From: Buxus sempervirens
Lineage: Eukaryota > Streptophyta > Magnoliopsida > Buxales > Buxaceae
Length of the DNA stretch: 64,000 bases
Assembly: GCA_947561395.2 (NCBI GenBank)
Contig: OX387184.1
Coordinates: 28,138,766 to 28,202,765 of the forward strand
Direction: 5' to 3'
In this document: piece after piece, positions 31,524-44,366 of the stretch
How positions within the stretch are numbered: position 1 is the stretch's first letter
Layout of the letters: each line of letters starts with the position of its first letter
Made by a program: the position numbers and the translations under genes
The notes under the pieces: generated by a model
Databases searched by the model: none
Seen by the model: only the letters and a program-made list of their open reading frames with translations
Told to the model about the DNA's origin: nothing

Positions 31524-31600
31524 GTAGGCATTATGTTTGAAGTGGACGAGTTAAGTGAGATAAAAGAGGGCACAATGCCACACTTAGCAAATGGGATCCC
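31524..31600 (+). pseudogene. NB-LRR pseudogene, part 2 (LRR piece between LINE and MULE)
   Basis: The frame continues VGIMFEVDELSEIKEGTMPH, then LANGI, directly from FPRLKFLF on the far side of the LINE. 'ELSEIKEGTMPHL' is the usual late LRR text of RPM1-like receptors. The piece is cut off by the MULE inverted repeat at 31601. Confidence 0.85.
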
Positions 31601-31714
31601 ATACAACCTTTATCTGCAAACCAAAATGCAGCCCAACCACGATTGCGACAGGTGTCCGCTCGTTTTTTAACATAACGGGTTGTATGGGACTAACGGAAAC
31701 GGAGCTTACGCGTT
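31601..31714 (+). repeat. MULE left terminal inverted repeat
   Basis: It matches the reverse complement of 44030-44144 throughout except for a run of six T here against seven there. The match extends 13 bases further out (CAAATGGGATCCC), because the target site itself is palindromic. Confidence 0.95.
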
Positions 31715-31793
31715 GAAATCCGTCAACGTTGCTCTCCCCATTTTCTCTCTCTTCTAAGTCGTAGAGGGAAAACTTCCTTCCAAAAAACAATCT

Positions 31794-31990
31794 GAGCACG
31801 AGAAATTTTGGGACTCTCTGAGGTCGCAAGCTCAGAGAAATTTTGGGACTCTCTGAGGTCCCTGAGGTCGCAAGCTCAGAGAAATTTTGGGACTCTTTGA
31901 GGTCGCAAGCTCAGAGAAATTTTGCTTGCGAAATTTTGGGACTCTCTGAGGTCGCAAGCTCAGAGAAATTTTGGGACTCTCTGAGGTCGC
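31794..31990. repeat. Subterminal tandem repeats, about 35-bp unit, left end of MULE
   Basis: About five copies of a unit built from 'gaaattttgggactctctga' plus 'ggtcgcaagctcaga', some truncated. It sits between the terminal repeat and the presumed transposase leader, where transposase binding or promoter sites would be expected. Confidence 0.9.
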
Positions 31991-33306
31991 AAACCCATTG
32001 CTAACATTGCTGAGCTGCGTTCAAAGATCTTCAAACGACGAATTCAGGTTTACAAAGAACACCGGAAGGTTCTTCGCGTTGTATTGGCTGCATCCTCTGT
32101 TTAATAGATTGGTTTGAGGATCGGCAATCGATGGAGTAAGCAAGAGAGTGAGTGATTTCTTTTTCTTAAACAAATCTCCATTCTCACTGTTGTATCCTTT
32201 CTTTTCTTTTCCCCTTTTTTCTTATTTTGTTTTTCTCTGAAATCAATCGGATTGTGGTTTGTATTCTGGGGGGGTTGAAATGCTACTAACGTTATTGGAA
32301 TTCATGCACTTGGATTTCACAATTGGGGGTTTCCTCCATTGGTAATTGACAGTTATCTGCATGCCAATGGTCTTTGGATTCTACCTTTTTTTTCTTTTCT
32401 GTGCTCATCAAATGGAATACACTTTGTGCTGGGTTTGATTTTTTTTTTTATTCACCACTGGTTAAGTAACTATTTCCTTAACAAGCATATTCAGTTACTG
32501 TTGGAGGGTTTTACTTTTCATCATGATGGAACTTTTATTACCTTCGGGTTTTTATCATTAGTATTTTTGAGTCCTTTATGTCCTAAATCTTAACCCTCCT
32601 CATTTTTTTCCAAGTTATTTATCTCTAATCATATAGTTGTAGTCTGTTTTAGAATTAAATATTAGTGCCAAATGAGCAAAGCTACCAATTTGCTCGAAAG
32701 TTGACTTGCATGATAATTGCCTGCTTCTTATGGATTTTGGCTTTCTAAAATGCTGTAATTAAACTGCATATGTGGTCATCTATTGCTGGTCCTTAAGATA
32801 TTTCATTTTAGACTGCAATAGTAATTAATTTCCCATATATATTACATTACAGGTTCTAACAAATGGGATAGAAGTGAAGCTACAGAGAAATGCCCTTAGT
32901 GTGATTGAAGCTCCAACTGGTCATGAGGATGACGAAGACTTTGCTTGCTATAACACGCAGTGGAATGGCTCCAATATTGGTAAGTTTAGCTTGATACATC
33001 ATATAATCTACTTTATTGTGAGAATGGCTCAGACTTTGATTTTTGTTCGCTTGAGAACATAAAGTGCTGATAAAGGTCTGTTTTAGATCATTTGGACAAA
33101 CTTTCAATGCTATGCTGTTCTGCATTTTATTATTGTTTTCAATCTTCATGAATATGGAACCAGACTCCCCTGTTTTGCTACCTGAGCACATCAGGCTCCT
33201 CCTCCATGTTGCAGAATAGGACTCCACATGCTCCTTTATGCACTGACCATGTAGCAATCAGTAAGAACTTAAACCTTAACAAGATAGACCTTTAGTTTCA
33301 CTTTTA
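31991..33306 (+). other. Presumed 5' leader and introns of the MULE transposase gene
   Basis: After the tandem repeats a GT-starting intron-like stretch begins near 32150. A possible exon 32853-32980 follows a 'ttacag' acceptor, reads IEAPTGHEDDEDFACYNTQW and ends at GGTAAG. Its role is unknown; it may be a coding or leader exon. Confidence 0.35.
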
Positions 33307-33307
33307 T

Positions 33308-33712
33308 CTTCCTACCATTTCAGTTTCACATGGGGCTTAAGGAAATAATTTTGCAACCAATTTTAAGTCTTGGGAAGTGCTAGCTGCATGAAAGCAATAA
33401 ATAATAATAATAAGAGTACAATATTTTACTTTATTGACTGCTATTTTACCATTTCAGTTTCTAATATATACATTAGTTCATGCCCTTTATTTAGTTATTA
33501 GACACTCATATCTTCCTACCATTTCAGTTTCACCTGGGGCTTAAGGAAATAATTTTGCAACCAACTTTAAGTCTTGGGAAGTGCTAGCTGCATGAAAGCA
33601 ATAAATAATCATAATAAGAGTACAATATTTTACTTTATTGACTGCTATTTTACCATTTCAGTTTCTAATATATACATTAGTTCATGCCCTTTATTTAGTT
33701 ATTAGACACTCT
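33308..33712. repeat. Tandem duplication, about 203 bp x 2
   Basis: Two nearly identical copies begin 'atcttcctaccatttcag' at about 33308 and 33511 and end before the first large transposase exon. The copies duplicate a potential splice acceptor tract. Confidence 0.9.
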
Positions 33713-33786
33713 TGAATTATTTTACTTTATTGACTGCTATTATATTTGTCTATTTATCTATTTTCTTTTTGTGTTTGTTCTCTAAT

Positions 33787-36378
33787 ATGCTTTCTAGTGA
33801 GAAAGCATATAAGAGGTGCAGTTTGGTTACTTGGGAAGACTTATCAGTGAATATGTCGACCCAAAAGGAGAACAATGAAGAGAATGTTGAGTTGGTTATG
33901 TCGACCCAAAAGGAGAACGGTGAAGAGAATGTTGAGTTGGTAGTTATACCTAATGTTGACCCGCAGTATGTTCCTACCATTGGGAAAGAGTTCGTTTCAC
34001 CTAAGGAGGCATATGATTTTTATAATGCATATGGTGGGTTGCAGGGTTTAGTATACGGAGAAGCTTTTCTAAAAAGGATAGTGGTGGTGTGATAATGAGT
34101 AAATCATTTTGTTGTTCAAAAGAAGGATTTAGGGTTGAGGCATCTGCCATTCGGACTAGGCCGATTGCACACACGAGGTGTGGATGCAAGGCTTTTATGA
34201 CAGTCCGATTGAATCTTGACGGGAAGTACTTTATTTCGGCTTTAAATGAGAGCCATAACCATGAAATGCTTCCGTCCAACATGAGTCATCGGTTGAGATC
34301 ACAAAGAAAAATTACCCCTGCCCAGGCAGCTCAAATTGAGACTGCTGAAGGTGCTGGATTGACACCAAGAGCTGGTATGGAAGTTTTGAGTACACAAGCT
34401 GGCGGAATTGAAAATGTTGGATTTGTGCGTGAAGACTACAGGAATTACTTACGTACAAAGAATAAGATACGGATGCAGAAGGGAGATAGTGGTGCACTTG
34501 CTGCTTATTTTCAGAAGAAGCTTTGTGAGGATAGGGCATTTTTCCATGCTATTGATATGGATGAAGATGACATGATCACGAATATATTTTGGGCAGACGG
34601 TCAAATGGTTACATATTATCGTTATTTCGGAGATGTTGTAAGTTTTGATACGACATTCAAGACAAACACTGAAAACCGGCCACTTGCACTTTTCGTAGGA
34701 TTAAATCATCATAGGCAGACAGTTTTTTTTGGTGTTGCCCTCCTTTATGAAGAGAGCAGTGATGCATTTTCCTGGTTGTTCAAGACTTTTGTCAACTGCA
34801 TGCATGGAAAAGAGCCACAAACAATTATAACAGATCAAGATCAGGCAATGGCAAAAGCCATTAATTCCGTGTTGCCTCGAACAATTCACCGGAATTGCAT
34901 TTGGCATTTGTATCAAAATGCCGCAAAGCATCTCGGTTCTCTATTTCACTCTTGTAAGGGTTTTGCTGAAACTTTTAAGCACTGTATATACAAGTGTGAA
35001 AACGATTCCGAGTTTGAAGAGGCATGGCGTGACATGATTGATAGGTTTAGCCTTTCTGATAATGCGTGGTTGGAAGCAAAGTATAAGGAAAGGGAGAAGT
35101 GGTCGCTAGCGTATGGTCGAAATTATTTCTGTGCTGATATGCTTAGTACTCAAGTATCAGAGAGCATGAATGCCTCAATAAAAAATGCCTTGAACAGACA
35201 AAAAAGTATGGTGCAACTTCTAACCCAGATTGATGTTGTTGTGGCGAGGCATCTATATAGTGAGTTGGCAAGTGATAGCAACATGCTGTTGAAGAGGAAA
35301 GAAGCAGATCTAATACAACCACTCTTTAGACATGCATGCAAGGTGTACACTCCTACAATATACGACCGGCTTGAGAAGGAAGCAATAGGCATTTGGTCAT
35401 TCAAGATTCTAGACTCTTCAAAAAACGGGGATGTTGAGATATTTAAGATTGTTAATAAGGGTGAAAGCATCTAGGAGGAGCACACAATGACATATAACAG
35501 TGTACATAGAGATGTGCAATGTAGTTGTAAAAAGTTTGAGTTTGCGGGTATCTTGTGCAGGCACATCTTCTTGATTTATTTTTTTAAGGATGTTACTAAG
35601 ATCCCAGATAAGTACATCCTAAAAAGGTGGAGAAGAGATGCTAAAGATGGATTACAATGCACTATGTCACATGGGTCACCAAGTGTAAGTGGTGAGACGG
35701 TAAGATATCGAATCGATATTCTTATGTTTGTTCTACTTTGGTTCAAATAGCCTCTAAGTCAGCTGCCTGTCAAAAAGCAACCGATTATGTTATGGATATG
35801 GCAACAAAGATGAATCAGGAGGTTGAAAATATTGTGAAACAGACTGTTTTTCAAGAGCTTCCGAAGGACAACGATGCTTTGGGCAGCAATGTATCATTTG
35901 AAAATGAGCAAAATTCTTATGTGGGTGGAAAACTTGTCAGTGAGGACCATATGAATTCTATAGATATTAATGTAGTTGAGGAAGTTGGAAGTTGTGCAAA
36001 TGAGCAAACATATGCAAATGAAGACCTTGGTGGGGAACAACATCCTGATGCAAGTACGGGAACTAATCCGTTAGTTGCCATTTCACAAAAGCGCATTGAA
36101 AATGCAAAAGGTGTCAAGGTAAAGGAAAAAGCCAAACGTGGTGGTATGAGTCTTCATAGGAAGGTGGATGCATTAACTCAAGCAACGAGGAAAAAAAGGC
36201 GCAAAGCACAAAACAATGAGTGTGGTGGTGCTGAGCAAGTGGTGCCACCTACCCAAAGATCAATGCTAGTGCTTCCTCCATCCGCTGAATCTTCTACGTT
36301 TTCGTATCCTCATGTTCAAATGGTGTGTCTACTAACCTAGTCAATATCTCCCTTTTTTAAATTGTAACTTTTTCCTCC

Positions 36379-36410
<32 letters not shown>

Positions 36411-36621
36411 CCCCCCCAAATTTCAACACACAATTGCTAACTTCCCTTTTTTTTATACACAGATGCCTGCACACCTTTTGCATCCTTTCCTATACAATAC
36501 AAATTCACCCATGGGATCATATCAGCAATTGAGCGATGGTCGATCTAGCATGATGCAGATGCTACAAGAAGCAGAGATGCCTAGCCAACCTTCACCCCGT
36601 TCTCCCAGGCGAACTTTGTAA
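33787..36621 (+). pseudogene. FAR1/Jittery-type MULE transposase, nearly intact
   Basis: The ATG at 33787 or 33853 leads into a 15-codon tandem repeat (MSTQKEN..EENVELV). A FAR1 DNA-binding domain follows (FVSPKEAYDFYNAYG ... SKSFCCSKEGFR). The MULE core has FDTTFKTN (Asp at 34647), IITDQDQAM (Asp at 34833) and NCIWHLYQNAAKHL. A SWIM finger CSCKKFEFAGILCRH lies at about 35517-35565. A spliced tail ends in SPRRTL, stop at 36619-36621, with introns near 35700-35750 and 36337-36461. Defects seen: one frameshift near 34040 inside the FAR1 domain and one TAG at 35472 just before the SWIM finger. The 461-codon core is open. Host FAR1/FHY3 genes are relatives, but the flanking inverted repeats mark this as the transposon's own gene. 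Confidence 0.92.
36380..36417. repeat. C-run (30 C, G, 7 C) in the last transposase intron
   Basis: A near-pure C tract lies between the donor ATG|GTGTGT and the acceptor 'tacacag'. It is the second such tract in the window, again inside a DNA transposon. Its length may be unreliable. Confidence 0.9.
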
Positions 36622-37085
36622 TGTCGAGAAGGTTAGTGTCCGTACTTGTTGGTATCATGCAAGAGCAAAGCCATGAAGTTTGTAAAGTTCCTTTTTAAGT
36701 GTAATTAGCTATCCTTTTTTTTTTCTAATAATTTTTTTAGTGGATTAGAATAAAATGAAAAAAAAGTTAAAGCAAGAGCAAAGCCATGAAGTTATGTGGA
36801 TTATTGACTCATGAGTCATCTGGTTGGGACTCCAACCTCCTCATACCTACTACATCTTATTTGTCTTGATAGTATTGTTACTATATAATATAAGATGGGA
36901 AACCACTAAGTCATCCTTTCCCATTATTAACATCTTTTTTGGGTCTTTAAAAATAGTTAATCACTGTTGAGGGACCATGTGTCTGTGGTCAAACCTCCAG
37001 GATTATAGTGTCAAAGAATAAACAAATTAAAAAGAAGAAAAAGGTCTATGGTCGGTAGAGTAATCAAAATGGATCCTCATTCTTG

Positions 37086-37207
37086 TCAACTCCATATGAG
37101 ATTCCCAAGATTTGCACTATGATCTGCATCTACTGCCCAACTGGTGAACCAGCTAATTGCATTGAATTCATCCTTTGTAATCCCAAGATTTGTCAGGTAT
37201 CCTTTAT
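37086..37207 (-). pseudogene. Exon-like fragment of unknown gene, possibly captured by the MULE
   Basis: On the minus strand a 'cttacag' acceptor is followed by a frame reading KGYLTNLGITKDEFNAISW then FTSWAVDADHSANLGNLIWS and a stop. The composition is protein-like and a splice acceptor is correctly placed. I do not recognise the family, so it could also be a chance frame. Confidence 0.35.
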
Positions 37208-37299
37208 CTGTAAGACAGCAAGAAACAAACCTAATTTGGGTTATAATTAAACCATATATAAAGTATGACCAGTCAAGAAATATTAGGAGCAGAACCATA

Positions 37300-38036
37300 C
37301 AGGTGGTTGGATTCCTGGATTTCCTATCAGATAAATTGTTCTTGTTTGAAAACAGATATATATCAGATTAAGAGTTACTGAATGGTACATCCAGAAAATT
37401 ATTTCTATTAACAATACCTAGTACTCTAGAATTATTTTTATTTTTAAAATTATTAATAACATTCTCATCTGAAGCATGAATTTTAAGTATTGGTGATAAA
37501 ACAAGTGTTTCCAAAAAGCAAGGGTAAGTAGTGATCTTGAGAAACTGGTACACAAACAGGGCACTTTTGTCATTTTGAAAGATGGGTGCCAAAAAAGGGT
37601 ATGTTTTGTTATTTTAAAAGATAATTTTAAAACAAGGCATTTTGGTTATTTAAAAACACAGGTAGGAAATAGAAACTGTCAAGGTGAGTTTGGCCTTTGG
37701 AGTGTGCAAAATTGGGTGTTGAAATGTACATGGCAAAATAGTACAATGGGTTGACTCAAGCTGACCCCCGGATGAACTTGTTTGAACTTTGAACTAGCCT
37801 GCTCCCCTTGCTGGATTGGCACCCTAGCTGGGTTTTAAAACATTTTAGATTCCATTTTTTGGTTGTCATCACCAAGAAAGTTTGTTTGAACTTTGAACTA
37901 GCCTGCCTTCTATGGCATTATTTCAATCATTTTGGTGTTCTGTATTTATTCTGTTTTCCTTTTTCCTGAACAAACACTATGAGTCTGTTAGATGAGCTTT
38001 CACCATTGAGTTGTCTGATGTTTGTTCTTTTATATC
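37300..38036. other. No gene recognised (inside MULE)
   Basis: AT-rich filler between the minus-strand exon-like fragment and the CDPK piece. No motif was found. Confidence 0.5.
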
Positions 38037-38964
38037 AGTGGCGCAATAACTAAAGGCTGGTTTGAGAAGATATGGATCAAACTTGAACTAAAGGCTGGTT
38101 TGAGAAGATATGGATCAAACTTGAAGGAGTCAGAGATCCGTGATCTTATGGATGCGGTAAAATTAACACACTTCTATGCTTTGACTGCAATGTTTCATGA
38201 AAAAGATGAAATTATCTTTGGTATTACTTGAGATTGGTGCATTACAGCATAGAAAGTTTTGCCAACTTATTACTCATTCATCTGAGAATCCAATTTAAAG
38301 CTATCTAGAATTTGAGTGACAATTGTATCCCATGCTCTGATAAAGCTTGTTGAGATATTGAGAAATCTCCCTCACTGCTTATAGCAAAGTTATATGTTCA
38401 TAGAAGTTAGATAACAATTAGCTACCAATTAAGTCTTAAATATCTTTTGAAAATATTATCTAAATTTTCAACTCTTGTAACTAATTTCATTTCCCATTTC
38501 ATTTTTTCCACAACTCTTGTAATATGCTTCATAACATTTTGTTTTATGCCAATTTTTTCTGAACTTGTAACTGTTTTCTCATTTAATTTTCATGCAACAG
38601 AACTTTGGATATATAGCAATGCTGTCATGCATAGTCAGTCACTGTTCTTTATAGAATGATTTGGTGCTTTGAGGTTGTTTATTAATTGATCAGGACTGTT
38701 ACTTTTATTTTTATGCAAGTCATTAGAGAGAATGATGAACAGGTTGATGCGACAGAAATGGTTTCAGCTTATAATTGTTATTCTCAGTTGTTATTGAGTG
38801 GGTTAATTCCCTCATAAATTTGAGCTTGCATGGCCACTTGGACTATAAAAACTGTCCCCCTGACTCTAGTTGTCTTTATTCACCTCTTCTTTGATAAATT
38901 ATCAAAACCCCAAGTTTGCCAACTTAGTCAAGTTTGTGAAGTACAAATGAAAGTAAGACAAAAA

Positions 38965-39065
38965 ATATTGTTTTTGGTAAATGATGAAGCAATTTTATTA
39001 ATAATAAAAAATGGTATACAGAACCCCCTATCCCAAGAAGACAAAGGTAGTCCTAAGAGCAGATA
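38965..39065 (-). mobile_element. LINE 3'-end fragment in the captured CDPK intron
   Basis: On the minus strand the text ends 'tattattaataaaattgctt' and 'catcatttaccaaaaac', like plant LINE tails. It is heavily 5' truncated. Confidence 0.45.
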
Positions 39066-39123
39066 AAACTTAAGTTTCAATATATACATATATGTGTTTG
39101 TGTTATATGTACACATCACCTGT

Positions 39124-39556
39124 GGCTCTGTTTGGAGTTTAGTATTTTATGAGAATATGTAGAAAGGCCAAATTTCCAACCAAAATAGAGCATCTGGATA
39201 CTGAGATCTTGAAGTAAAGCATGGTTAACTGGAAACCTATCCTCATTCACTGCCTTGAACCCCCAAAAAGGCCAACCCGGAAATTCTTGAAAAAGGCACA
39301 GTGGAACAGGAATATAGAGAATTTTACTTTATCTCTTTTAGACCAAAATACACTGCAACTCTTATTTGATCCCCAAAAAAGGCATGCACAACTTTTTTTC
39401 TATGCCAAAAATACCTTGCATCATTGAGTGTTCTTCATTTTCTTTCACCATCCAAATTCCTTGCATTAACTTTCTTGCATGTTATTTTACATTAGTTTTC
39501 CTGCACATTACTCTTCCAATGAATTTTCCAGCGTGCTTTTTATATCCAAACAGAGC
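39124..39556. repeat. Possible MITE in the captured CDPK intron
   Basis: GGCTCTGTTTGGAGTTTAG on the left and (reverse complement) AGCTCTGTTTGGATATAAA on the right form an imperfect inverted repeat about 430 bp apart. No clear target duplication was found. Confidence 0.35.
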
Positions 39557-40149
39557 TGCATGAACGGAACCTAAAGCTGAACAGCTTTTGGTACAACACA
39601 AAACATATACAAATACACACACATATACATATATACTTGAAAGATATATGTAATTACATAAAAATAGCTTTAAATCTAGTTTTAAAGGTATTTGAAATAA
39701 AACTAAGACGATAATGGTTGAATGGAAATATACTGTAGTGGAATTGATTAGAAAGAACTCGATCTTGCTTTCTGTGGGATCCAATTTTTTCATTGGGAAG
39801 TAACATATTTATTAGGAGATGTTTACTTTTGAAATGTTCATAAAATTTCTTCTGATGTTTGGTATGTACATCCAGGTGACCATGACTTATTTTGGTTTTT
39901 CAATATACATTTATCTGGGGTTTCTGAGGTCTTTCATGTCCTATTTAGCTTATCATGGTTAATCTATTACAGGCTGATGTGGACAACAGTGGAACCATTG
40001 AATATGGGGAATTTATTGCTGCAACTGTTCATCTTAACAAGCTAGAACGTGAGGAACATCTCATTGCAGCTTTCCAATATTTTGACAAAGACCGAAGTGG
40101 TTATATTACTGTTGATGAACTCCAGCAAGCTTGTTCAGAACATAACATG

Positions 40150-41272
40150 TTGATGGACTGGTTATGTGTCTTAGTACTCTATACTCTAAGAAGCTTAGTA
40201 GTGATTTGTGGTTGAATTCAATTATGCAATTTCGACGATTTGGATTGTTTTATGTTTTGGCTTATAGGATGCTAAAGGGATAGCTTACTTAAGATCATTT
40301 GGTTATTTTCCACCTTTTTTTGTATTGTTGTTCTTCCAATTTTATGATCAGTTTCCAATCACGACTTTGAATATGGAGTTCAAAGGGATTGCTTTCCTCT
40401 GTATTGCGTTCAAGACCCAGAAAAGGAAAATGCATCAATAATGCTCCATCAAAACCACCAAACGACGAGAGGAGATAACTGGCATCAGAGTAAAAGCCTC
40501 TTCCTTAGATCTCAGATATCGTCCTACCAGTTCGCTCTTGCACATTACAAGGCAGGCACCAACACAGCCCCAATTAACAAAGAAGGAAACTCCATAACTG
40601 GCCATTCGCAAATAAGGTGATCCACTATAGTCTGCTGCTTTTCACATGCAACTCCTATTAGAGAGAAACTAATTGCTTGCGGCCAAGTTATTCATGTGGA
40701 AAACTTCTGTAGAGTAGCAGTCCATATAGAAATTATTTTTGGGTGGCATGGGGCTGACCAAATTAGCATATGTGGCCCAAGATATTTGATTAGAGATATC
40801 TTATGCATAAAAATTTTTGCAAACACGACTTTTTATTATGGTTGGGATGATACAGTCTATGCGCTTGCCAGAAAACCACCTTATAAGCAATGAAAAGGGA
40901 TTTAGTTCAACTGTTTACTGCAATTCCACAATGCCAGTATCGTCTCTTCCCCCGGGTAAATCACCTATAGGTGATTTAACAACATTCAAAAGATACTGAT
41001 ATAAAACAAACAAGATAAACAAGTTTCAGTTAGAACGGTACCACAACTAACAGCAAAGATTCATATAAATAAGATTCATACGCCCAAAAATAGCAAAGAT
41101 TCATATAAATAAGATTCCTAAAGCCTATTTAGGAAATTGCTATCAAACGACATTAGTTAGTGTTCAACAAAAACAGAAATTGTCTTCTAGGAAAAAAAGT
41201 GATAAAATAAACATGCGAAACTCTATTTACAAGAACATTCCTAAACCCTAAAGACAAGAAGAATCACTGTTT
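40150..41272. other. No gene recognised (inside MULE)
   Basis: Mixed sequence between the CDPK piece and the GRF gene. 40380-40990 is less AT-rich and may be a remnant of a coding element, but no motif could be named. A short direct repeat ('agcaaagattcatataaata') lies at about 41050-41110. Confidence 0.4.
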
Positions 41273-41949
41273 TCACTTGTCATTTAATGACAATCCATCC
41301 AATTTGTCTAAAATCTTTCGACCTAAGTTTACAACTCTCTCCGACGCTTCAACTTCCACTTCAAGCATTCTTTTTATAGATTCAACGCGTTGGAGGGTTG
41401 ACATGTCATGGCATTTTGGATCGGCTGGCTTGGCTGGATCAGGAGTAGCATCTTCAGGATTCTTTTCCACCCAACTAAAATACCCACAACCGTGATCTTC
41501 CAACTGTAATACAAGAAATTAAGTATCAATATATCACAATATAATAAATATCAAACCACCAATAAGAGTAACAGTAAATACCTTGGATACAGTACATGCA
41601 TAGAAGCGTTGCCCAATTGAACCATGCTTCTTAGAGGTTAACACTCTGCATGGCCCTCTATTGCAGGGACACATCTTGTACTCGTCAATCCACAAAAAGA
41701 AACCACAGTCCTTACTGTCTTTCTACATCAATATATAAATTGTCTTTAGAATCTATATTTGATTAATGAACGCCTTTTTATGACAGACAAAAAGTGTTTA
41801 AGCTAGACACATACCCAATGTGGGCATCAAAAAAAATCCCTGCCGGGATTTTTCTCCGTCTTTGATGTTTTAATCACACAATGACCTTTTCCACACGAAC
41901 ATAGGATATTACTATTTGCTAGCGTTGACGACGAAGAAGCTTCAGTCAT
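41273..41949 (-). pseudogene. Tandem GRF-type zinc-finger protein, three exons, at the MULE's right side
   Basis: Exons 41949-41815, 41722-41582 and 41503-41273 join in phase 0 with GT..AG ends (about 168 codons). Finger 1: ILCSCGKGHCVIKTSKTEKN, PGRDFF, stop, CPHW|KDSKDCGFFLWIDE. Finger 2: CPCNRGPCRVLTSKKHG, RFYACTVSK|LEDHGCGYFSWVE. Both show the GRF pattern (CxC, TS, GRxFxxC, CGxFxWxE). A Pro-rich linker and a charged helix (LQRVESIKRMLEVEVEASER) that may form a coiled coil close the protein. Small plant proteins with this layout are known as At4g04775-like. One TGA replaces the residue before CPHW. It points inward from the right terminal repeat, convergent with the transposase gene. Confidence 0.85.
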
Positions 41950-42109
41950 TCTTCCTTTCTGTAAGACCTTAAGGAATTACTATTTGCTAAAATCGTTATT
42001 ATAGTAATTAAAATATGAGTGGACATGAGACCTTAAGCTGTAGAAAACTACAAACCTAATGATAATGAGAAATATTTCTAAAAATATGATGCATAAGCCA
42101 CATTAGCCA

Positions 42110-42310
42110 AACAGATGGATTGTTTTTTTTTTTAATTCTAAATTCTCACCAGAAAAGGAAAAAAACAAAAACCTTAGTGCTTCCTCTTTTCAGAACAAGA
42201 CTAGACCAGATTTTGTTTTTTTTTATTCTAAGTTCTCACCAGAAAAGGAAAAAAACAAAAACCTTAGTGTTTCCTCTTTTCAGAACAAGACCAGACCAGA
42301 TATTTGTTTA
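42110..42310. repeat. Tandem duplication, about 88 bp x 2
   Basis: Two copies of a block containing 'ttctcaccagaaaaggaaaa' and 'cttttcagaacaagac', upstream of the GRF gene on the minus strand. Confidence 0.9.
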
Positions 42311-43529
42311 TATAAATCTAAATTCTAAACTGATTTCAGAACAAGTTTTTATATTTCAGGCATGGTTCATGGCGCCTGGTGTATTATCTATACTCTGAAT
42401 TTCATGCCCTCAATCCTTCATGGCGCCTAGTGTTCTGAAATGTGCTCAGTGATTGGCATTTGGCAAGTAACATTATACTCTCCAAAGGGTAGTCCAAAGT
42501 TCTAATCTATTGCCACTTCACTCTAATTAGTCATTCGATTTCTTCCCCTTCGATGTCATAGAGATCTAGCTAATCTATTGTCATAGAGATTTCTTCCCCT
42601 CCCTATAGGTATATGAAATCCACCACTCCCATGCTCTTACTAGTTCTCCAGCATCTTCTAATACCCCATGTTTTTGTATTACCCTATGAATGTTTGCAAT
42701 AGAAACTGTTTCGTTGGAGCTCCGTTCTACAAAAATCCTTGTTCCAAAGTTATAAGACATTTCATACTAATGCAATATACTGATCATGCTTATAAATATC
42801 ATAAATTGCAGGCATTATTAATAATTATATAGTCAAAACAGCCAATATTTTAGCATCAGAATTGCAGTCAAATTTTCCATATTTTTATGCAAAGAAAAAT
42901 TAATTATCAGAATATCAATACTAGCGCTCAACACAAAGATATTTCCTATTTTAGTCAATTTATGCTCATATTGCCATGTATCAGTTAATCTAAGGTCATC
43001 CTGCCCAGTTACTCAAATATGCAAGGATTCAGGGGTTTTCATGTTTAATACATATCATTAAAAGTCTTGTGTACGCAAACAACAAATTTATCTTTAGTTG
43101 CAAATTTACATAATAATTTACTTATAAAAGAAGCATCAGATGAATCTCTCAGAAAAAAAAATGTTCAAATTCATCGGTGGTGTGAGTGACTAGTATGTAT
43201 TTTAGGAGGATCGAACAGAATTAAACAAAATCAATTATCTTCTTGTAAATCCAAATTGTGGCATTAGCAGGTTTCATTGTGAATTTCTGCAAGTCCTTAA
43301 TTCCATCTAAGGAAAGATATGATAAAATATCTATAAAGCAATTAAGTAGCAATTAGTAAAGGAGTCCCATCAAATTCAGTTGTTTCCATCCGTGTTTTTC
43401 GTTACCCGTATGTGTTGCAGTGTCTTGATACATAAGAAATGGGTGGAGCTACTACCTTCAATGTAGGATATCAAGAATTATTTCCTAAACAATTATCATC
43501 TTCAGAAATGGAAAAAGATGCAAGAATCA
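42311..43529. other. No gene recognised (inside MULE)
   Basis: AT-rich. It may be promoter or leader-intron sequence for the minus-strand GRF gene. No exon could be set. Confidence 0.4.
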
Positions 43530-43930
43530 TACCTTCAAATACTTTGTCGACAAGTTGAAAAGAGGAGGAGAAGAGCAAGAGACCTGCTTTCGTGGAGAAG
43601 AGCAAGACGTGGTATGGTTTCGTGGCTTTCGTGGAGAAGAAGAGCAAGACCTGGTATTTTTGTGCATAAACTCATGGAGAAGAAGAGCAAGATCTGGTAT
43701 GGTTTCGTGCAGAAAGAAGAGCAAGATCTGGTATGGTTTCAAGATCTGGTATGGTTTAGTGAAGAAGAAGAGCAAGAAGAAGATTTGGTATGGTTTCGTG
43801 AGGAAGAAGAGCAAGAAGAATAGCAAATCTGGTATGGTTTCGTGAAGAAGAAGAGCTTTGAAAATTTTGGGAAATGGAATGGGATCTGATTTGTTCGTGA
43901 AGAAGAAGAGCTTTGAAAATTTTGGCAAAT
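43530..43930. repeat. Subterminal tandem repeats, about 30-bp unit, right end of MULE
   Basis: Many imperfect copies of 'tggtatggtttcgtgaagaa' plus 'gaagagcaagatc', grading into 'gaagagctttgaaaattttgg' units. The long Glu/Phe-rich frames here are repeat artefacts. The block mirrors the tandem repeats next to the left terminus, and both contain 'aaattttgg'. Confidence 0.9.
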
Positions 43931-44029
43931 GGAATCCTATCTATCGACTGCGTCTGCTTTTTGGCCCGGCAGTACGGCAGTCCACTTTTTGAAAACGAAT
44001 TTTCAAATTTTGAAAAACTTCCGTTCACG

Positions 44030-44144
44030 AACGCGTAAGCTCCGTTTCCGTTAGTCCCATACAACCCGTTATGTTAAAAAAACGAGCGGACACCTGTCGC
44101 AATCGTGGTTGGGCTGCATTTTGGTTTGCAGATAAAGGTTGTAT
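44030..44144 (-). repeat. MULE right terminal inverted repeat
   Basis: Complement of the left repeat with one homopolymer-length difference. The outer end is at GGTTGTAT|GGGATCCC. Confidence 0.95.
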
Positions 44145-44152
44145 GGGATCCC

Positions 44153-44366
44153 ATTTGAGTTACTTTTGTTATACTGTACTGCCCAAAATTGAAAAAGATT
44201 CCACATGGGCTTCAATATCATAAAGCACTTAGGGGCATTCACTTATATGACATATATAGGGACTTCATCAAGATCGAGGTTGCATCCATGTGAAGTGGAA
44301 GGAGATGGCAGAAAAAGTGGAGAGGACAATTGGTTGATCCATCGCATTCCCAACATCAATATATAA
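44153..44366 (+). pseudogene. NB-LRR pseudogene, part 3 (C-terminus)
   Basis: Beyond the MULE the frame reads LYCPKLKKIPHGLQYHKAL, then RGIHLYDIYRDFIKIE. In a shifted frame it continues HPCEVEGDGRKSGEDNWLIH, then RIPNINI and a stop at 44364-44366. 'CPKLKKIPHGLQ' and the closing 'HIPNI' text are the usual C-terminal signature of RPM1-like receptors. At least one frameshift lies within this piece. Confidence 0.85.

Follow-up and report, generated by a model that had tools for sequence, protein, structure and literature searches.

A right-arm, convergent double-GRF gene in a FAR1/Jittery-type Mutator-like element of Buxus sempervirens, probably an exchanged helper of transposition

Introduction

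The second genes of plant Mutator-like elements (MULEs), such as mudrB, ORFR and vanB, are seemingly unrelated to each other and their role is open. In maize MuDR, the product of the second gene, MURB, is credited with a role in insertion (PMC9168764), and the ORFR gene of Abermu elements is fast-changing, with a Ka/Ks below 1 and a function given as unknown (PMC9168764). Jittery of maize is described with one gene (PMC9168764) and without a mudrB homologue (PMC9569675), and the Jittery dicot/monocot sub-group, with terminal inverted repeats (TIRs) of 39–292 bp, is tabulated with one open reading frame (PMC6446971). Here we analyse a MULE of Buxus sempervirens in a stretch of 64,000 nucleotides (assembly GCA_947561395.2, contig OX387184.1, positions 28,138,766 to 28,202,765; hereafter the window) and follow its genes through the 676 Mb of this one plant genome. 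The element is a FAR1/Jittery-type MULE with an old, constrained, convergent double-GRF gene in its right arm, probably an accessory gene exchanged between elements, whose product probably acts as a transposition helper that binds single-stranded DNA (ssDNA).

Results

Two convergent genes between near-identical terminal repeats

The element holds two convergent genes inside its TIRs, a transposase gene entering from the left and a GRF zinc-finger gene entering from the right. Its main features, in window coordinates, are as follows.

31588–44157: MULE element of 12.57 kb, with terminal repeats at both ends
31588–31714, plus strand: left TIR, 127 bp
44030–44157, minus strand: right TIR, pairing with the left repeat
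31800–31992, plus strand: left subterminal tandem repeats, period 35/84
43596–43856, plus strand: right subterminal tandem repeats, period 39–43
33464–36659, plus strand: transposase cassette, the sole DNA shared (90.7–92.2%) with C6:28.38, C21:24.18 and C14:33.9
33853–36621, plus strand: FAR1/Jittery-type transposase gene, broken; last exon about 36462–36621
41815–41949, minus strand: GRF exon 1, first half of finger a, with an in-frame TGA
41582–41722, minus strand: GRF exon 2, second half of finger a and first half of finger b
41273–41503, minus strand: GRF exon 3, second half of finger b, conserved tail and stop

The two TIRs align over 127 bp with 0 mismatches and 1 gap. The preliminary description of the window had already noted near-identical terminal repeats, which stand, though its 115 bp and its limits of 31601–44144 were slightly short. 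It had also placed a subterminal tandem-repeat block on each side and the two genes between them, and these agree with our analysis: the transposase has MULE (3.3e-30), FAR1 (1.1e-16) and SWIM (7.5e-6) domains on the plus strand, and the GRF gene (PF06839, 5.9e-8) lies on the minus strand in three exons with GT-AG junctions. Exon 2 of the window gene scores 33.1 bits against PF06839 (cut-off 25.9). The window element thus has the FAR1, MULE and SWIM domains and the TIRs of the Jittery/FAR1 type, and departs from that type in having more than one gene. Its FAR1 domain stands in place of DBD_Tnp_Mut, which is present in the elements at C10:32.15, C9:21.41 and C15:9.98 Mb.

The GRF protein of about 168 residues has two GRF fingers followed by a conserved tail, and a phase-0 intron interrupts the coding sequence of each finger. 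The two lineages of the gene, GRF-A and GRF-B, share an identical three-exon double-GRF structure. Both fingers of the C9:21.41 Mb relative align with the tandem GRF of NEIL3 (7omk and 7jl5, E 2.6e-10 and 7.8e-10); this relative was the query, and the window gene is linked to it by the same exon structure. Short ssDNA is bound well by the repeated GRF fingers of NEIL3 and not by single ones (reviewed in PMC9737245), and the GRF motif of APE2 binds ssDNA (PMC6122073). By analogy with both, the MULE protein is predicted to bind ssDNA.

The GRF gene recurs at one position and in one orientation

By merging the matches of several similarity searches (for some of which only the rows judged new were taken), we listed 255 GRF places. 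Transposase places number at least 89 of the FAR1 type and, assigned to it by similarity, at least 116 of the MuDR type, 15 of 131 MuDR-type rows having been dropped as second fragments near another row; all lists are lower bounds. Among the FAR1-type places above 51% identity, a GRF match lies within 15 kb in 13 of the 49 listed and within 30 kb in 15 of the 49. The corresponding figures for the MuDR type are 35 of the 116 listed (35 of 76 at 60% identity or more) and 37 of 116. Conversely, 49 of the 255 listed GRF places have a listed transposase within 15 kb.

Every transposase place with a GRF has a convergent one among the matches listed, and an inverted pair at C11:41.6 Mb accounts for two additional tandem relations. 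When positions were shuffled, convergent GRF matches within 15 kb averaged 0.18 (maximum 2) for the FAR1 type and 0.35 (maximum 3) for the MuDR type. In all 10 elements measured, GRF exon 1 lies 1.5–2.7 kb from the right end. The MuDR-type carriers include elements at C10:32.15 Mb (10.5 kb, TIR of 184 bp, with a target-site duplication, TSD), at C11:19.04 Mb (9.3 kb, its TSD weak, within an AT run) and at C4:56.42 Mb (TIR of about 0.9 kb, its TSD weak, in a T run). A restriction of the GRF gene to the FAR1-type family is rejected by these MuDR-type carriers, and for the same reason the MuDR-like layout seen in the preliminary description, though present, is not peculiar to the window family.

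One large GRF group without a listed transposase is represented at C1:28.85, C11:5.14 and C15:9.98 Mb. The C15:9.98 Mb locus comprises a divergent MuDR-type transposase (DBD_Tnp_Mut 2e-15, MULE 3.5e-15), a plant mobile domain gene and a convergent GRF gene; its transposase is interrupted by 2.4 kb absent from C1:28.85, and the ends of the element were not found. The GRF family at L028, L056 and L060/L061, which includes a divergent MuDR-type transposase and a plant mobile domain gene, has dozens of similar copies with long tandem arrays beside the GRF gene, and one of these copies has GRF without a transposase. Several MULE lineages of this genome, namely the FAR1 type and at least two of the MuDR type, have the GRF gene as an old component under constraint.

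Siblings sharing the terminal repeat

A search with the window TIR identified 22 places in the genome. The sibling at C15:6.16 Mb has TIRs 84–86% identical to those of the window, an exact 9-bp TSD and the same gene order, with the same transposase (96%) and a complete GRF gene. A full-length GRF gene with a stop lies at C21:26.55 Mb, where one TIR was found. The elements at C19:7.52, C4:16.28 and C3:50.76 Mb (5.9–8.4 kb) retain GRF exon 3, have no transposase and share one common internal deletion. These complete or partial GRF genes in siblings indicate that the gene belongs to the family. The collection of siblings by TIR had been proposed in the preliminary description, for which siblings consistently devoid of the gene, or its presence here only, would have been unfavourable; instead, C15:6.16 Mb carries both genes. 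A recent capture confined to this copy is rejected by the many GRF places, this sibling included, and a separate nested element is rejected by the same order in this sibling and the similar position in 10 of 10 elements.

Most family members found are non-autonomous. The element at C4:10.53 Mb (5.8 kb) has only the start of the transposase gene, those at C4:11.28 and C4:23.6 Mb measure 2.0 and 0.8 kb, and three TIR-matched elements measure 3.6 kb, with at least 98.4% identity to one of these three. Four non-autonomous copies (L010–L013, at C4:11.28, C6:39.56, C8:2.39 and C15:28.12 Mb) have right-end copies at both ends, as repeats of about 340 bp.

Transposase and GRF genes occur in reassorted pairings

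In what follows, C6_283, C9_214, C10_321, C15_61 and C15_99 denote the copies at C6:28.38, C9:21.41, C10:32.15, C15:6.16 and C15:9.98 Mb. The transposases of the window and C6_283 are 94% identical (dS 0.12), and their GRF genes fall in different clades (support 100) with no DNA shared beyond the transposase cassette; C6:28.38, C21:24.18 and C14:33.9 all have other ends and another GRF gene than the window. The FAR1-type C6_283 and the MuDR-type C9_214 have only the GRF gene in common, at 76–80% DNA identity, and the GRF-A clade joins the window with the MuDR-type element at C10:32.15 Mb. Each of the two GRF lineages is therefore found with both transposase types. All five FAR1-type transposases of 90–94% identity have a convergent GRF-B, one of them at 17 kb. 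Transposase and GRF genes thus occur in reassorted pairings, and the same slot and direction in several kinds of MULE suggest that the helper has been swapped between elements.

The sister FAR1 clade (48–51% identity) has a GRF match within 15 kb at 0 of its 40 listed places and a convergent Transposase_32 gene (PF20167, 2.3e-23) at 28 of the 40. Among the 49 nearer FAR1-type places, Transposase_32 is convergent at one and divergent at one (14.6 kb). With Transposase_32 at the GRF position in the sister clade, the right arm looks like a slot for different accessory genes. This clade has many open transposases of 847 residues; in its example at C19:17.83 Mb, Transposase_32 lies at L057:7465–8592 (minus strand) and the transposase at L057:2885–5425 (plus strand).

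Constraint on both genes between lineages

Values of dN/dS were compared with neutral simulations (400 runs for GRF-A, 200 for GRF-B and 60 for the transposase; the fraction of runs as low is given in brackets). For GRF-A, five distant pairs give low values: the window gene gives 0.21 against the MuDR-type C10_321 (0/400), 0.32 against C3_378 (0/400) and 0.32 against C15_87 (1/400), and C10_321 gives 0.23 against C14_338 (0/400) and 0.34 against C3_378 (1/400). Ten of the 19 GRF-A pairs fall at 7/400 or below, eight at 40–221/400 and one at 398/400; in a wider pair set, some distant pairs with decayed copies reach 0.5. For GRF-B, the FAR1-type C6_283 against the MuDR-type C9_214 gives 0.27 (0/200), and C6_283 against C15_99 is saturated.

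The transposase of the window gives 0.25 against C6_283, 0.35 against C14_339 and 0.18 against C11_188 (0/60 each), 0.63 against C15_61 (19/60) and a saturated comparison against C19_178; C10_321 against C9_214 gives 0.18 (0/60). Between lineages, the GRF reading frames are maintained and dN/dS is far below 1, the outcome sought by the preliminary description. Constraint acted at the level of lineages, with recent copies decaying, as expected of transposons.

Decay and rearrangement of the window copy

The window copy is a decayed, rearranged member of its family. Besides the TGA in GRF exon 1, its transposase gene has a frame change near 34030, a TAG at 35472–35474 and probably a second frame change near 35697, with splicing there as the alternative. 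No 9-bp TSD flanks the copy, in a test that let the ends shift (7 bp in C4_105, 19 bp in C3_507; the Jittery/FAR1 range is 8–11 bp). Among the 14 other two-ended relatives, a 9-bp TSD flanks 13, repeated exactly in eleven and with a single mismatch in two; the fourteenth, C4_236, has one of 7 bp. The window copy could move only with proteins from other copies.

Between the two genes lies captured DNA, and a short open segment precedes the transposase gene.

36732–40149: captured patchwork of 3.4 kb, from four other genome places, 86–99% identical
36732–37113: patchwork part, 95% to C3:2.157 Mb
37108–37878: patchwork part, 98% to the C22:28.9–29.1 Mb cluster
37903–38355 and 39888–40149: patchwork parts, 86% and 98% to C4:0.746 Mb, an EF-hand gene
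38396–38512 and 38518–39887: patchwork parts, 99% to C15:32.93 Mb
32853–32980, plus strand: short open segment 5' of the transposase, retained by two siblings at 95 and 100% amino-acid identity

The patchwork is a capture of the Pack-MULE kind, here within an element in which a transposase gene is present as well. One segment sits between two parts of another source, and the pieces overlap by 6 bases at one joint. The source with EF-hand exons (7.8e-14), the sole one shown to be a gene, is read from its sequence as a probable calcium-dependent protein kinase gene. The open segment at 32853–32980 has no Pfam match and may be a 5' exon or an old capture.

Comparison of the arms with siblings revealed an uneven history. 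Against C4:10.53 Mb, the left arm is 96–98.6% identical from the end inward to 34350 and its last 0.56 kb 92.5%; against C15:6.16 Mb, identity is 88–98% in the body, 80% in the outermost 0.24 kb on the left and 71% in the outermost 0.47 kb on the right. This contrast indicates that one of these lines had its ends replaced, or that its ends evolve faster than its body. The segment at 32.2–33.3 kb is 97% identical to C4:5.444 Mb, which however also matches the subterminal part of the element. Further local features are a tandem duplication of 204 bp ahead of the transposase coding region (33305–33711), a 45-bp in-frame duplication at the coding start (33852–33941) and, in what is presumably the last transposase intron, a stretch of 38 bases that are mostly C (36380–36417).

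Discussion

We infer that the GRF gene works for the element. Its protein would handle cut ends or gap DNA, or aid reinsertion as MURB is credited with. Because ssDNA could be bound independently of the transposase, the same helper could assist several unrelated transposases. We put forward, tentatively and as less likely than not, a transferable helper cassette: an ssDNA-binding GRF protein used interchangeably by FAR1/Jittery- and MuDR-type transposases, sitting in the mudrB slot and traded between lineages, so that MULEs would evolve as modules (ends, transposase, helper) and not as lineages. If this is true, a gene of the mudrB type would for the first time have a plausible biochemical role.

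Several observations weigh against a constrained helper in the right arm. The C15:6.16 Mb sibling is broken too, with stops in both the transposase and the GRF gene, and the search found no member of the window's own subfamily in which both genes are open. Six TIR-matched relatives of 0.8–5.8 kb have no GRF match, nor, by these queries, does C11:18.9 Mb, which has TIRs, a TSD, 82% transposase identity and an open frame of 841 residues. Among the matches listed, 34 of the 49 nearer FAR1-type places, many of them fragments, have no GRF within 30 kb, and for 206 of the 255 GRF places no transposase is listed within 15 kb. With so many relatives, C11:18.9 Mb and its open transposase included, lacking the gene, GRF is not strictly required. 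As family copies are not independent, the number of lineages behind the orientation rule is perhaps five or six. Nine of the 19 GRF-A pairs are indistinguishable from neutral or worse, among them the window against C15_61 (0.49, 92/400), C12_210 against C21_273 (0.78, 221/400) and C15_87 against C9_233 (1.79, 398/400), and the young GRF-B pairs of C6_283 with C21_241 (0.87, 101/200) and C14_339 (0.64, 73/200) look neutral.

The main rival to a transposition helper, which we regard as unlikely, is that GRF is an anti-silencing factor like VANC of Hiun/VANDAL21, shielding the element from methylation and not acting in transposition. An anti-silencing role is described for vanC, which is an accessory gene in a plant MULE (PMC6446971); work on active demethylation included assays of Arabidopsis APE2, whose finger is of the GRF type (PMC4191409); and GRF exons 2 and 3 are still open in the copy at C11:5.14 Mb, which lacks the transposase. 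The GRF of APE2, however, is joined to a nuclease domain and here GRF stands alone. Less probable still is repeated capture of a host double-GRF gene by different MULEs, with no function for the element. MULEs do copy foreign DNA, as the window copy did from four places, the GRF places far from any listed transposase leave room for a free-standing host donor, and the young pairs give no selection signal. Such captures fit poorly with the constant convergent orientation and similar position, with dN/dS of 0.21–0.34 between lineages, and with the largest set without a listed transposase, which at C15:9.98 Mb proves to be a further MuDR-type MULE with a convergent GRF.

That two elements came together by chance, or that one is nested in another, as the missing TSD of the window copy might suggest, is very improbable: C15:6.16 Mb shows the same order within an exact 9-bp TSD, and the layout is common to the 10 measured elements. 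For the family, this sibling refutes such an origin; a rearrangement at the flanks may have affected the window copy alone.

An accessory gene whose fold is known and whose activity can be assayed, in the same slot of distant MULEs, makes the helper question testable with one protein. The case also shows that in plant DNA transposons the transposase and accessory genes can be found in different combinations.

Comparison with known systems

Tandem GRF fingers are the likeness to NEIL3 (7omk, 7jl5), which is a DNA glycosylase with further domains, unlike the MULE protein of two fingers and a tail. MuDR of maize (mudrA/mudrB) is likewise a MULE with TIRs and two genes in opposite direction; it differs from the window element, whose transposase is of the FAR1 type and whose second gene encodes a GRF protein, mudrB being compared by layout and description. 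MURB is not known to have a GRF finger.

A literature search, with most subscription literature outside its reach, found nothing linking GRF fingers with MULEs, and the word GRF occurs 0 times in the main text of the Abermu paper (PMC9168764). In the type II elements among the Abermu MULEs of barley and other plants, an opposite-direction reading frame likewise lies between the transposase and the 3' TIR (PMC9168764); Abermu differs in adjoining the MuDR clade and in that ORFRs of distant plants are not similar to each other (PMC9168764). The window element contains DNA from elsewhere in the genome between MULE ends, as Pack-MULEs do, but these have lost the transposase gene, which the window element has, though broken.

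Jittery and the Jittery dicot/monocot sub-group share with the window element the N-terminal FAR1, the MULE core and SWIM, and differ from the elements here in the convergent GRF or Transposase_32 gene added in the latter. The statement of the preliminary description that Jittery types are described with a transposase only holds for Jittery itself, given a single gene (PMC9168764), and fails for Jittery-like MULEs of grapevine and melon with ULP1 downstream (PMC2528002). The ULP1-bearing MULEs of these two plants, MuDR-like as well as Jittery-like, come close to our case in having accessory sequence downstream of the transposase (PMC2528002). In contrast, ULP1 occurs in either orientation, explained by repeated capture (PMC2528002), whereas GRF is convergent at every listed transposase place that has it.

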